Source: Porticoccaceae bacterium (lineage in GTDB: Bacteria > Pseudomonadota > Gammaproteobacteria > Pseudomonadales > Porticoccaceae). From it: 64,000 nucleotides of DNA. The DNA is taken from assembly GCA_012960115.1 (NCBI GenBank), contig DUBX01000042.1, forward strand, positions 147,364-211,363. Direction: 5' to 3'. Below are positions 24,357 through 50,278 of the stretch, piece after piece. How positions within the stretch are numbered: position 1 is the stretch's first letter; each line of letters starts with the position of its first letter. The notes beneath the pieces were generated by a model. It searched no databases. It was not told the DNA's origin and saw only the letters and a program-made list of their open reading frames with translations. Position numbers and translations under genes: made by a program.

Positions 24357-24378
24357 CTTGACCAAAAGAGAGGCACTC

Positions 24379-25179
24379 ATGACTGCAGAAACACCGACCA
24401 TATTAAAGAAAATTTTAGCGCGAAAGCGGGTAGAAGTTGCCGAGCGCAGTGCCTTGGTGTCCCTATCTATTTTGATTGAAAATTTGGTAACAGCCTCTAA
24501 GCCAAGAGGTTTCACTCAGGCGGTTAAGGCAAAGGTAAGCGTCGGGGAATCAGCTGTTATTGCAGAAATCAAAAAAGCTTCTCCGAGTAAAGGAGTCATT
24601 CGCAACAGTTTCGACCCAGCACAGATTGCTAAGAGTTATGAAAAGGGAGGAGCCTGTTGCCTATCTGTATTGACTGACATTGATTTCTTTCAAGGCTCAG
24701 ATATTCACCTGCAGGCGGCTCGCGAGGCATGCAACCTGCCGGTTATCCGAAAAGATTTTATTGTTGATGAATACCAGATTTACGAGGCTCGCGTGTTAGG
24801 CGCCGACTGCATTTTGTTAATTGTCGCTGCTCTTGATGAAATACAGCTAAAGCAGCTGCATAAGCTTGCGGTATCTCTTGGGATGGATGTGCTAGTTGAG
24901 GTGCATAATGAATATGAATTAGAGATAGCTATTCAGTTAGAGAACACCCTGATTGGGGTTAATAACCGTAATTTGCATACCTTTGAGGTTTCTTTGGAAA
25001 ACACTTATCGGTTGCTGGATAAAATGCCTTCGAAAACAATAGTGGTGACAGAGAGCGGTATTCATACCTCTGCTGATGTCATTGCAATGCGCAAGAGGAA
25101 TGTTCAGGGATTTTTAGTGGGCGAAGCATTCATGCGAAGTGAGCAGCCTGGCGAGAAATTGAAAGAATTATTCAGTTAG
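24379..25179 (+). CDS. trpC: indole-3-glycerol phosphate synthase
   Basis: Ring closure of carboxyphenylamino-deoxyribulose-phosphate to indole-glycerol phosphate. The ATG at 24379 has AGAGAGG five bases upstream and gives [20 protein letters not shown], 266 residues as in Pseudomonas; an upstream TTG at 24358 is less likely. Catalytic stretches [37 protein letters not shown] and VTESGI are intact. The PRAI domain fused in E. coli TrpC is absent, so trpF must lie elsewhere. The converging Crp/Vfr remnant follows, as vfr follows trpC in Pseudomonas. Confidence 0.97.
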
Positions 25180-25243: not shown

Positions 25244-25827
25244 TCATCGGGCGCCGAGAAGGACTATAGTTTTGCCTGCAACAGTTATAAGACCGTGGCT
25301 TTCAAGTTCTTTTATCACTCGTCCGGCCATTTCACGCCAACAAACCACAATGCGGCCAATTTTCTGGCGAGTAATCTTAATCTGCATCCCGTCTGGGTGA
25401 GTCATGGCATCAGGTTGCTTTGCAAGATTTTTAAGTACCTGAGTAATGCGGCCAGTGACACTTAAGAACGCCAAATCACTTGCTTTTTGGATCGTTTACC
25501 TAAGTCTCTTAGCAATCTGCTTGGCGACCGAAATAAGATTTCAGGTTCTTTTTGATAAAGCGCCCTGCACTTTGAGTAGCTAATTTCACAGACTTCACAG
25601 TCAGTTTTAGTTTTAATCCATGCACTACAAGGGTGCTCTTCAAAAAGGCCCATTTCTCCAAAAAACTCACCTGGATTGAGGTAGGTGACTATCATGTCTT
25701 TTTCGTCATTTCCATCTACGTCACCGGCATAGATCATGGTACTTTTTACTGGATAACGCCTTCTATGAAAGTTAGATAGAAATAATTTTTCGCTCTTAGC
25801 GGCAATTGGTAGCGCGGACATATTCAT
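25244..25827 (-). pseudogene. vfr: cAMP receptor protein (Crp/Vfr) remnant
   Basis: Crp/Vfr is the cAMP-dependent global regulator. The first frame (25827 to 25462) has HRRRYPVKSTMIYAGD, then jumps to DMIVTYLNPGEFFGEMGLF, lacking some 15-19 residues of the cAMP-binding beta-roll. The cAMP-binding Arg of ERSAW is replaced (HPCSAW). A frameshift near 25465-25475 (about four bases missing, GDLAF expected) ends that frame; the second frame (25474 to 25244) carries [20 protein letters not shown] onward and [20 protein letters not shown], but the recognition helix reads VVCWREM instead of VGCSREM. Deletion, frameshift and loss of binding residues together make a non-functional gene. It sits after trpC, the position of vfr in Pseudomonas. 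Confidence 0.88.
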
Positions 25828-25992
25828 GATAGTTCCTAAATTATAGGTCTATGGTGGTACCAGCATATTTATCGCTTCCACCATTGCCTTAGCAAAGGTA
25901 AATAGTAACTCTTTATTATGCGGTTATGCATACATATCCAAAAAAAGAAACAATGGGAGGTGCCATTTAAAAGCAACGGCTAAAAAAAGCTT

Positions 25993-26019
25993 AAAAAAAA
26001 GGGACCTTAGAAGGTCCCT
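25993..26019 (-). terminator. intrinsic terminator of unit 1
   Basis: Stem AGGGACCTT / AAGGTCCCT (9 bases, 2-base CT in the middle) followed on the minus strand by eight T. A small hairpin ATCCT-N6-AGGAT lies just upstream (26041-26026). Confidence 0.9.
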
Positions 26020-26110
26020 ATAAAAATCCTATAGCAAGGATTAAGAGGGGTTTGGTTCAAGCTGAATTTGGTTGTACGATTTTTAGAGCCGCTAAGTGGG
26101 CTGGTTCTTC

Positions 26111-26218
26111 TTACTGCTTATTTTTTATTTCTGGTGCTTTCAACTTAACGAAGTCATCTTTAGCAATTGCAGCGCCTGCTAGTCCAGTGAAACCTATTAG
26201 CAAATACACGAGCGTCAT
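26111..26218 (-). CDS. 35-residue membrane peptide, unknown
   Basis: Short frame not recognised as any family. The ATG at 26218 has AAGGA eight bases upstream (26231-26227). It reads MTLVYLLIGFTGLAGAAIAK, then a charged tail DDFVKLKAPEIKNKQ and TAA. Residues 3-19 form one hydrophobic segment, and with the AxA at the end it could be a signal peptide releasing a 16-residue product or a single-pass membrane peptide. It lies within tandem unit 1, under the presumed LysR operator. Unit 2 has no equivalent hydrophobic segment. Confidence 0.5.
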   Translation of the reverse strand: MTLVYLLIGFTGLAGAAIAKDDFVKLKAPEIKNKQ

Positions 26219-26284
26219 TTCTATTTTCCTTAATCGTTTGAGAGCGTCATTGCTCCGATGGATGCACTATATTGCTCGAGAGGT

Positions 26285-26320
26285 CATGATGCAAATGCAT
26301 TATATGCATCAACTATATGC
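26285..26320. promoter_or_regulatory. 36-base box 1, probable LysR operator
   Basis: Matches box 2 (26533-26568) at 30 of 36 positions with no gap. Contains TGCATTATATGCA, a T-N11-A element with inverted TGCA ends, the general form of LysR-type sites. On the minus strand it also contains TATAGT, a possible -10 hexamer for unit 1. It lies about 67 bases before the peptide start. Confidence 0.6.
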
Positions 26321-26352
26321 AAAAATGATATGACGTGGAGTGATTCAAAATA

Positions 26353-26381
26353 TAAAAAAAAGGGACCTTAGAAAGGTCCCT
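26353..26381 (-). terminator. intrinsic terminator of unit 2
   Basis: Stem AGGGACCTT / AAGGTCCCT (9 bases, 3-base loop TCT) followed on the minus strand by seven to eight T. Same stem sequence as terminator 1, about 360 bases away. Confidence 0.9.
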
Positions 26382-26530
26382 TTGAAAAATCCTGTAGCAG
26401 GATTAAGAGGGGTAATGATCGCGAACGAATCTGGTCGTGCTTTCTCAAGTTAAAGTCTAAACCTAGTTCTTAGTTTTGAATTTAGAAACTTTAATAACTA
26501 CATCGATGTTGCTAATATAGTTGCTCACGA
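26353..26530 (-). ncRNA. tandem small transcription unit 2 (sRNA-like)
   Basis: Minus-strand paralogue of unit 1, between box 2 and terminator 2. Its 3' part repeats that of unit 1: CCCCTCTTAA (26412-26403), hairpin ATCCTG-CTA-CAGGAT (26403-26389), then the terminator. The body is about 115 bases shorter than unit 1 and lacks the membrane peptide. A 21-codon GTG frame (26528-26463) exists but has no ribosome binding site. The unpaired C-rich stretch is complementary to AAGAGGGG-type Shine-Dalgarno sequences, so it could act as an antisense regulator of translation. No family recognised. Confidence 0.55.
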
Positions 26531-26532
26531 GG

Positions 26533-26568
26533 CATAATCCAAATGCATTGATTGCATGAACTATATGC
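26533..26568. promoter_or_regulatory. 36-base box 2, probable LysR operator and divergent promoter
   Basis: Second copy of the box, 29 bases before the lysR ATG. Contains TGCATTGATTGCA, a T-N11-A element with perfect inverted TGCA ends, and ACTATATGC shared with box 1. It lies between lysR (+) and unit 2 (-), the usual place for a site at which a LysR regulator represses itself and controls a divergent target. Confidence 0.62.
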
Positions 26569-26597
26569 GTTTTTGGTATACCCGTTAAGAGGCTCTG

Positions 26598-27554
26598 ATG
26601 AACTTACAAAAGCTTTCCCGACTTGACTTAAATTTATTGGTTTCGCTACAGGCTCTGCTTGAAGAGAAAAGTGTTACTCGCGCCGCAGCGCGCCTGTTTA
26701 TTAGTCAGCCAGCTATGAGTCGCGTTCTTCAGCGATTGCGTTATCAACTTGACGATCCGCTGTTCACACGAACCGGCAATGAGTTGGTTCCGACCCCAAA
26801 AGCAAGGGACCTGCAGCAACGGTTACCAAGATTACTCGATGGAATTCTAGATATGGTTAGTGAGGGTGAATTTGACCCCACAACTTATGTTGGTGAGATT
26901 ACCATTGCTGTACCCGAATTTGTCGCTATCTCTTTGATATCACAATTAACCAAAGTGATTACTGAATATGCGCCAGGATTAATCTTATCTATCTCAAGTG
27001 AAACTGACTCGGTGGAGGGTGAGCTAGCAGACGGGGTCTTAGACTTTGCGATCGATATTGAAAAGACCATGACAGACGATATCACCACAACACCATTGGC
27101 TATTTTTACGCCATCAATTTGGATGCGTGAAGGCCATCCTTTAGCCCATAAAGAAACAGTCACACTGACCGAAATTCTTGAATATCCGTTTATTCAATAT
27201 TATCTACTAATCTCCAAGAGAGTCAGCGCAAGAACAGATGCTCGATTTGATCGAGCGCTTCGAGAGTTAGGCCTCAAGCGTAAAAAGACCTTGGTGACTA
27301 ATCAGTTGATGACAGCAATGGAAACCGTATGTGATACCGACTGCCTGATGGTTGCGGCTAAGTACGGCGTGACTATGGAGCGAGAAATGCATCGCATTAT
27401 TCGTAAGCGCTACCCGGCGGATATTCCCCACGAAGGTAAAATAAAATTAGTCTTACTTCAGCATCAGCGTACTTCTGGCTCACCAATTCATCAGTGGCTT
27501 TCTGAGAAGATAGTGGGATTGATTCAAGAGAGAGAGACAATCATCGACGTCTAG
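26598..27554 (+). CDS. LysR-type transcriptional regulator
   Basis: DNA-binding regulator of 318 residues. The winged helix-turn-helix covers about 8-68, with LDLNLLVSLQALLEEKSVTR and ISQPAMSRVLQRLR typical of the NodD/LeuO/PnbR-like branch. The effector-binding domain (about 95-310) has no signature that names a ligand. Two related small transcription units and two matching boxes lie directly upstream; box 2 is 29 bases before this start. They are its most likely targets. No enzyme gene is in the cluster, which is unusual for this family. Confidence 0.9.
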   Translation: MNLQKLSRLDLNLLVSLQALLEEKSVTRAAARLFISQPAMSRVLQRLRYQLDDPLFTRTGNELVPTPKARDLQQRLPRLLDGILDMVSEGEFDPTTYVGEITIAVPEFVAISLISQLTKVITEYAPGLILSISSETDSVEGELADGVLDFAIDIEKTMTDDITTTPLAIFTPSIWMREGHPLAHKETVTLTEILEYPFIQYYLLISKRVSARTDARFDRALRELGLKRKKTLVTNQLMTAMETVCDTDCLMVAAKYGVTMEREMHRIIRKRYPADIPHEGKIKLVLLQHQRTSGSPIHQWLSEKIVGLIQERETIIDV

Positions 27555-48804: not shown

Positions 48805-48824
48805 TTTCTCTCTACCTGTAATGA

Positions 48825-48995
48825 AACCCCAGGATGCCGCTGCCAACGTGGCCTTGAACCGAAGAGTTCAAGTTGGCGACTCTAGCAACACATCAGGCTT
48901 TCCGACGCACGGAATTGCACAACAATGCTGACAAAAAGAAGCCGTATAATAATTATCGGCTCAGGGACTTCTTGGCTGGCAAACACCCCAGGAAA
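48825..48995 (-). ncRNA. ssrS: 6S RNA
   Basis: About 171 bases directly upstream of ygfA. On the minus strand it contains AAGTCCCTGAGCCGATAATT near the 5' side, nearly identical to the E. coli 6S central-bubble segment, and the matching CAACTTGAACTCTTCGGTTC on the 3' side (E. coli CACCTTGAACCAAGGGTTC). The ends pair: CCUGGGGUG (48992-48984) with CAUCCUGGG (48836-48828), nine pairs with wobbles, as in 6S closing stems. It binds housekeeping RNA polymerase in stationary phase. Ends are estimated to within a few bases. Confidence 0.9.
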
Positions 48996-49071
48996 AAGCA
49001 TTATAACAGAGCATCCGTTCAAAATAGCGGCAGTCATAGAGAATTTTAAGAAGTTTTTTGAAGTCGCTCGA

Positions 49072-49732: not shown

Positions 49733-50278
49733 GTGACGTTTGAAGAACTTGAAGACTTGTTTTATGCCGTCAAGATTACGGCGAGTCCTTCTGCTTTCCA
49801 TGGCTTTCTCTGTGGTCGCTTGACTTGTGGGGCTGTGGGTATTGAAGATTTAATTGAGACGTCATCCGATTGGCTTACGCTTTCCGAAGAGCAAAGTGAA
49901 GCAGCCCAACCATCTTTGCGTGATTTTTTTGAATCATCGTTAAGTAATCTAGAGGATGTATCTTTTCTCTTCCAACCCTTATTACCAGAGGATGAGTTAC
50001 CCTTGGGAGAGCGGTTGAGTGCTGTTGGGGAATGGGCTAGCAATTATATCTCTGGACTTGCTGAAGGTATGGAGAGTAATTTTGAAGTTTCAGGCGAAGG
50101 TAAAGAAGCCTTAGATGACCTTGCTGCCATTGGGCAGGTTTCGCTGGATTTTGAGACTGAAGATGAAGGTGAGCGTGACTACACTGAATTAGTTGAATAT
50201 ATCCGAATTGCGGTGCAGGTTATTTTCACGGATTTGCATCCTGAACTAAATGCAGATCTTGAACCAACTATCCATTAA
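49733..50278 (+). CDS. ygfB: UPF0149 family protein YgfB
   Basis: 181 residues, all-alpha acidic protein. FHGFLCGRLTCG near 22-33 and LPLGERLSAVGEWASNYISG near 88-107 are family signatures. GTG start with AGGGG seven bases upstream. ygfB-pepP-ubiH-ubiI is the order in E. coli, kept here. In Pseudomonas aeruginosa YgfB affects beta-lactam resistance through AlpA; no sign of that system here. Confidence 0.93.
   Translation: MTFEELEDLFYAVKITASPSAFHGFLCGRLTCGAVGIEDLIETSSDWLTLSEEQSEAAQPSLRDFFESSLSNLEDVSFLFQPLLPEDELPLGERLSAVGEWASNYISGLAEGMESNFEVSGEGKEALDDLAAIGQVSLDFETEDEGERDYTELVEYIRIAVQVIFTDLHPELNADLEPTIH

Follow-up and report, generated by a model that had tools for sequence, protein, structure and literature searches.

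Two sibling small transcription units lie beside a divergent lysR gene in the window, a 64,000-nucleotide stretch of a Porticoccaceae genome from a genus that we take to be the SAR92 clade, and it is likely that this gene encodes a dedicated activator driving sibling, probably Hfq-dependent, anti-Shine-Dalgarno small RNAs (sRNAs) together with a small membrane peptide. The LysR-type protein would bind a conserved box overlapping the -35 element and thereby switch on both units, more being present in some relatives, and probably also controls its own gene, whose start is 29 nt away from the proximal box. The transcripts are predicted to end in an sRNA module in which a mostly single-stranded ACCCCUCUU is followed by a small hairpin, then a U-rich stretch and finally a rho-independent terminator; the C-rich stretch could block translation of target mRNAs by pairing with their GA-rich Shine-Dalgarno regions. 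Because one unit would double as the mRNA of a 35-aa, probably membrane-inserting peptide, one LysR signal could have both an RNA and a peptide output. An initial annotation had read this DNA as a LysR regulator controlling a duplicated small RNA, one copy of which also carries a peptide, and comparison with related genomes supports that reading overall. Almost all of the close relatives examined retain the layout, which looks like a real RNA regulation system; we infer LysR control of the units from their position.

The two units are encoded on the minus strand between a crp-like gene (25244-25827, minus strand), followed by trpC (24358-25179), on one side and lysR (26598-27554, plus strand, 318 aa), divergent from both, on the other; a Glycos_transf_4 gene lies on the far side of lysR. 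The crp-like gene of the window is broken into two reading frames, a single frame being present in the 30 relatives in which both parts were found, and the sister genome G037 (region L051) showed no crp in the interval from the units to trpC. The lysR-proximal unit starts behind a LysR-type box (26533-26568, minus strand) that is conserved in the genus and contains the -35-like hexamer TTGGAT (26537-26542), followed after 17 nt by the -10 hexamer TATATT (26514-26519). A start near 26507 is predicted from this promoter and, with the terminator setting the other end, an RNA of about 154 nt (26354-26507). Its 3' module consists of CCCCTCTTAATCCT (26399-26412), comprising the putative anti-Shine-Dalgarno seed and the 5' arm of a covarying predicted hairpin, AATCCTG-CTA-CAGGATT (26388-26404), then a U-rich stretch and an intrinsic terminator AAGGGACCTT..AAGGTCCCTT with U-run (26354-26382), the helix of which also covaries. 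In the window's group, the lysR-proximal unit showed no conserved open reading frame.

The upstream unit, also on the minus strand, has the same order of elements at its 3' end. Its box (26285-26320) contains the -35-like hexamer TTGCAT (26289-26294), the -10 hexamer is TATAGT (26266-26271), and a transcript of about 267 nt (25993-26259) is predicted to start near 26259. It contains a 35-aa open reading frame, MTLVYLLIGFTGLAGAAIAKDDFVKLKAPEIKNKQ (26111-26218), preceded by AAGGAAAA as ribosome-binding sequence and with its first 19 residues hydrophobic. Downstream follow CCCCTCTTAATCCT (26037-26050; C-rich part predicted 0.68 unpaired), the predicted and likewise covarying hairpin AATCCT-TGCTAT-AGGATT (26025-26042), and a terminator read from sequence and fold, AGGGACCT..AGGTCCCT with U-run (25993-26019). 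The two 3' modules are identical at 57/62 positions (blastn, unit against unit, E = 2e-19) and the box regions at 44/54 (E = 9e-10). Much of this anatomy had been described in the initial annotation, and we find as it did the 30/36 identity of the boxes, their TGCAT-N3-(A/T)TGCA element with T-N11-A spacing (on the plus strand), the hairpins, terminators and C-rich stretches in their places, and the distance of 29 bases from the second box to the lysR ATG at 26598. The peptide frame, which it gave to one copy, is that of the upstream unit, and both transcripts probably start about 25 nt later than it stated because of the -10 hexamer 17 nt after each box-internal -35-like hexamer.

This promoter geometry is shared across the genus. 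Among 68 promoters, retained from 75 candidate boxes, 65 show the box-embedded -35 followed at exactly 17 nt by a -10-like hexamer, the runner-up spacing occurring in 17/68, and each box appears fused to a sigma70-like promoter. The box would therefore cover the -35 and the region upstream of it, and LysR-type activators as a family have binding sites over the -35 and upstream. The box core, allowing one mismatch, has two sites in the 2.43-Mb genome of the window, both at the locus (reversed control, one), so the regulon looks dedicated in this genome and is directly testable. Dedication is less certain in relatives. Box core matches were found in 48/48 genus genomes covered; among the matches listed, some relatives have further sites with one mismatch, several in certain genomes, and at least three genomes (G014, G020, G075) have an exact site elsewhere, with no sign of a unit at the off-locus sites read.

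The lysR product has both the HTH_1 (PF00126, E 2e-17) and LysR_substrate (PF03466, E 3e-16) domains. BsrA is its best NCBIfam match (122 bits; cut-off, 480), and among solved structures it comes closest to 2esn and DntR-type proteins. An ortholog (E up to 1e-60) is encoded in 34/35 genus genomes, own included, and in 0/21 genomes of other families. Residues 245 and 249 are cysteines in a CxxxC arrangement, conserved in 36 and 42 of 45 aligned LysR sequences, and a redox or metal role for the pair is conceivable.

The RNA model search of related genomes proposed in the initial annotation gave matches to our model R1 (E up to 0.01) in 48/50 genus genomes; the matches in the window itself, whose sequence is included in the model, are at 26354-26416 (E 9e-16) and 25993-26054 (E 2e-17). 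A search with the locus DNA found 22/23 genus genomes, own included, and 0/13 others. We read the regions upstream of the conserved lysR in 34 genus genomes, and the first unit has CCCCTCTTAATCCT, with box and C-rich hairpin module, in 34/34, so that the conservation beside lysR on which the initial annotation had staked its reading is present throughout. Of these stretches, 31/34 contain crp and 31/34 contain trpC, two of which are short and at contig ends (L068, L078) and one of which stops before trpC (L057). The layout of the window, box-RNA followed by box-ORF-RNA, occurs in 7/34 regions and recurs in 3/34 more (L072, L081, L082) whose second module has decayed or was not recognised. The commonest arrangement is box-ORF-RNA followed by a type B RNA (18/34, counting L075; the second box is unlisted for L075 and L080). 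Units without an ORF make up 5/34 regions (L068-L071 and L083; in L068 the contig stops beyond the second box), and one region (L054, genome G007) is a longer array that includes N runs. Genome G079 has three R1 matches in tandem.

The modules fall into 42 of type A (34 distinct) and 22 of type B (22 distinct), with one that is neither (L082 distal) and two other terminator-like matches excluded from the set; the hairpin of type B is a distinct one, CTTTG..CAAAG, and the C-rich stretch is retained. The invariance of A modules in alignment A1 (32/34, the degenerate L074 distal and L054 distal being excluded) arises partly by selection, since they were picked partly by the string CCCCTCTTAAT, and the 34/34 first-unit count and the R1 matches are a fairer measure. 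The initial annotation had taken compensatory differences between the two window hairpins as a sign that RNA structure is kept. Two copies make a weak argument, but 75 R1 matches (67 distinct) from relatives do covary: 96.7% of cells in the helices are paired and 7/12 pairs have changes on both sides, each value being reached by 0/500 shuffles. The covariation score is 0.201 against 0.138 +/- 0.007 in shuffles (reached by 0/500), a result that leans towards structure because the alignment (A3, which contains a few misaligned B rows) was fitted to the model. Sliding the partners by 1 to 3 columns lowers the score to 0.005 to 0.102; the count of further pair types is unremarkable, 80/500 shuffles reaching it.

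In 64 predicted transcripts, of which six overrun the first terminator and three start at spurious boxes, the C-rich seed is unpaired at 0.67 on average versus 0.47 for the 5' part. It is more than 0.5 unpaired in 54/64 and mostly paired in 10/64, and in the proximal RNA of the window the C-rich part is predicted to be 0.91 unpaired. Features of Hfq-dependent sRNAs are present, namely the U-rich stretch, a terminator with long U-tail and an Hfq gene, Hfq being encoded in 8/8 genomes. We therefore favor a reading in which LysR activates sibling sRNAs and these pair with Shine-Dalgarno regions, on the strength of the unpaired C-rich stretch, the Hfq genes and a 3' end like that of Hfq-dependent sRNAs. 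At gathering score, Rfam gave only 6S RNA in the window, away from the locus (gene at 48822-48997, minus strand). Known RNA families were rejected for the locus, where the 13 Rfam matches at E <=10 (25830-26620) are at chance level, the best (E 0.25) falling well short of its gathering score and those to suhB and mmgR at E 1.5 and 3. Rfam holds an AbcR-type model, and no family of that type is among the 13, none of which reaches gathering score; this comparison is with database models only. Five relatives' loci gave one weak Rfam match under cut-off (ylbH, E 0.09).

The peptide is under purifying selection, as judged from 25 distinct sequences of 27 ORFs over the first 29 codons (pN/pS 0.21; pN 0.094, pS 0.453), from which the ORF pattern missed L054 (N runs) and L075, and for which a shifted-frame control gave 0 usable pairs. 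Variable codon positions are third at 26/29, against 10 first and three second. Seven peptides examined are 26-53 aa long with a 19-residue hydrophobic stretch, and the 35-aa peptide probably inserts in the membrane. Neither Pfam (E up to 1) nor NCBIfam matched it. Within the family, peptide matches were found in 52/112 genomes and 9/14 genera, weakly in six genera (E 1e-6 to 6e-4).

This selection, the breadth of nine genera and tandem multiplication in some of them could mean that the units serve above all to encode small proteins of a LysR regulon, the 3' module being just a conserved, stable terminator or 3' UTR that lacks trans activity and the ORF-less units leftovers. There are genera with the peptide and no R1 match, and some SAR92 peptide units keep the peptide while the C-rich stretch has decayed. 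We nevertheless consider this unlikely. The ORF-less first units of the window's group retain box, -10, seed and hairpin, as do five small-genome regions from genomes with no peptide match (completeness 78-92%), and a conserved C-rich stretch is unnecessary for termination. R1 matched but the peptide did not in seven genus genomes (G005, G008, G010, G014, G047, G074, G075) and three genomes of genus g23 (completeness of these ten 64-94%), so the RNA is more than the 3' UTR of the peptide; three other small genomes (G040, G070, G080) do have a peptide match. Some peptide units (L072, L074, L082, L188) have a changed C-rich stretch or have lost it, so the peptide unit need not act as an sRNA everywhere. 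A division of labor, with the first unit as sRNA and the other as peptide gene, fits these altered stretches. Peptide and RNA are separable in both directions, the RNA occurring without the peptide and the peptide with a decayed C-rich stretch, which offers a natural experiment on the rise and break-up of dual-function RNAs.

Small hydrophobic peptides of this length in tandem and dispersed copies also recall type I toxins, with a regulatory RNA beside them, and the peptide match is absent from several small genomes. Such a system is highly improbable here, since the sibling RNA is on the same strand as the peptide mRNA and has the same 3' module instead of being antisense, and a dedicated LysR activator, to our knowledge, would be unusual for type I toxins.

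The initial annotation had suggested a target search with the seed; our limited search found no conserved mRNA target. Outside the locus, the seed complement TTAAGAGGGG has 10 sites in seven genomes (0 to 4 per genome) versus 20 for the reversed control, and is thus not enriched. Two sites recur: one in the 5' leader of another lysR gene in G019 and G039, whose leaders are nearly identical, and one early in the coding sequence of a gene that we take to be rplV-like, in G068 and G036. The start regions of long ORFs in the window contain three 8-nt seed matches, including lysR itself and the ORF at 49733 (plus strand, GTG start, 181 aa), which has AGAGGGGT before its start, 8 nt of it complementary to the C-rich seed. 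In 8/34 genomes the seed is predicted to pair with the lysR leader at -9 kcal/mol or better.

The missing conserved target and the several copies of a short anti-Shine-Dalgarno-like motif would also suit C-rich RNAs that titrate a protein or ribosomes as a sponge without pairing to mRNA. We rate this as the least probable of the readings. CsrA sponges carry GGA motifs, whereas those here sit in stems, and terminator variants among the modules, such as AGGGGCCC, lack them. In addition, the unpaired C-rich motifs of AbcR1/2 are reported to pair with mRNA leaders (PMC8844928).

Among the closest known counterparts of the favored sRNA-and-peptide system is OxyR-OxyS. The LysR-type regulator OxyR activates the divergent sRNA OxyS, as the LysR protein putatively does here, but OxyS is single-copy and has neither the SAR92 peptide nor its module. 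RNAs of the CIN1/CcsR type carry CCUCCUCCC motifs, in contrast to the ACCCCUCUU of the SAR92 modules. In Rhodobacter, the DUF1127 protein CcaF1 is co-transcribed with the CcsR sRNAs, and such pairs are termed CIN1 loci (PMC10253847). The arrangement of small-protein ORF and sRNA in one transcript, with several sibling RNA copies, is shared with SAR92. The Rhodobacter loci differ in having an RpoHI/RpoHII promoter instead of a LysR-type box with sigma70-like promoter, and four sRNAs per RNase E-processed transcript instead of one module per unit with its own promoter and terminator; the window peptide has no DUF1127 match in Pfam or NCBIfam.

LsrB/VtlR, a LysR regulator of S. meliloti and A. 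tumefaciens, adjoins tandem AbcR sRNAs that use the motifs CUCCUCCC and UUCCCCUC; it activates abcR1, VtlR also activates a small-protein gene, and S. meliloti abcR2 shows no dependence on LsrB (PMC7486931, PMC8844928). The likeness extends to a LysR-type gene beside tandem sibling sRNAs, an LTTR-like box upstream of a sigma70-like promoter with N17 spacing (recognized here by sequence alone), a C-rich anti-Shine-Dalgarno motif between stem-loops (there aSD2, UUCCCCUC, in an ultraconserved stretch) and the involvement of small proteins, whose genes are there activated by the same LysR. The neighbors are crp-trpC here and trxB there, and both units here bear a box, unlike the LsrB-independent abcR2 of S. 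meliloti. The best curated match of the SAR92 regulator is BsrA and its best solved relatives are 2esn and DntR-type proteins. The statement of the initial annotation that no described family has this layout holds for these sequences in Rfam, Pfam and NCBIfam, in which none fits, but Alphaproteobacteria do have layouts that resemble it in function. By analogy, the SAR92 system may work like the LsrB/VtlR-AbcR and CIN1/CcsR loci, and this likeness suggests that LysR, anti-Shine-Dalgarno sRNA and small protein have come together in one circuit more than once. We do not file it with AbcR or CIN1 because of its different peptide and neighbors, the absence of an Rfam match and the BsrA-nearest regulator. 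In the open-access literature we found no description of this system, nor of any trans-acting sRNA in SAR92, bacteria that one study describes as abundant in coastal seawater and potentially important degraders of DMSP (PMC10746254).

Beyond the genus, R1 matches bring the family total to 67/112 genomes, and include three g23 and 11 g35 genomes, in the latter often on different contigs. Weak matches were obtained in two g29 and three g31 genomes (the latter E 6e-4 to 5e-3); no box was found in the two g31 regions read (L184, L186), nor was one seen in L163 and L183. Units of g35 combine the box with the peptide, with a diverged peptide or with no evident ORF. One genome each of g24, g25, g28, g30, g33 and g34 has a lysR of 45-49% identity beside crp-trpC with one to four peptide matches, and a C-rich stretch precedes the terminator in 3/6 of these loci (L221, L224, L225), in L225/L246 in 3/4 units. 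Ten peptide matches were found in the g33 genome, G116, and six of these are distant from lysR; before the terminator, four of these six dispersed units have a run of at least four C, one has CCC and one has none. It is possible, although we hold it short of probable, that a modular Porticoccaceae regulon is involved, in which cassettes under one dedicated LysR, each consisting of a promoter, a C-rich sRNA and optionally a membrane peptide, can lose either the peptide or the RNA, duplicate in tandem and disperse, as an independently arisen counterpart of the alphaproteobacterial circuits. If true, one signal would command a family of dual-function RNAs through such a cassette regulon.

A pattern scan for the module across 84,980 species returned 47 stretches, 46 of them in gammaproteobacterial records labeled SAR92, HTCC2207, Porticoccaceae, Cellvibrionales, Pseudomonadales or plain Gammaproteobacteria, including HTCC2207, MOLA455, H231 and H921; the remaining one, in a Thermoplasmatota bin, was dismissed as chance or contamination. 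In the order, R1 matched 11/390 genomes, ten of them in the family. The eleventh, G469, belongs to another family and has R1 (L189, G469:C43:7540-7600) and a peptide match on the same contig. We attribute this to a likely foreign contig in the bin, which has 4% contamination, the RNA being absent from the 24 other searched members of that family (1/25). Under stricter filters, the class gave 1/369 genomes, the genome of the window itself, and viral contigs gave 0.

Two further observations concern the peptide outside the genus. Dispersed units of g35 (L164, L166, L168, L177-L182) encode a second, diverged peptide, like MEIVYGAMIFSCVLLAAIATQDF, and have the C-rich hairpin module, with the box in most. 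The six dispersed peptide units of G116 (L241-L245) have a common promoter motif, approximately CACCACCCTACTTAACATTG, that is unlike the LysR box and suggests a second regulator for this peptide/RNA family.
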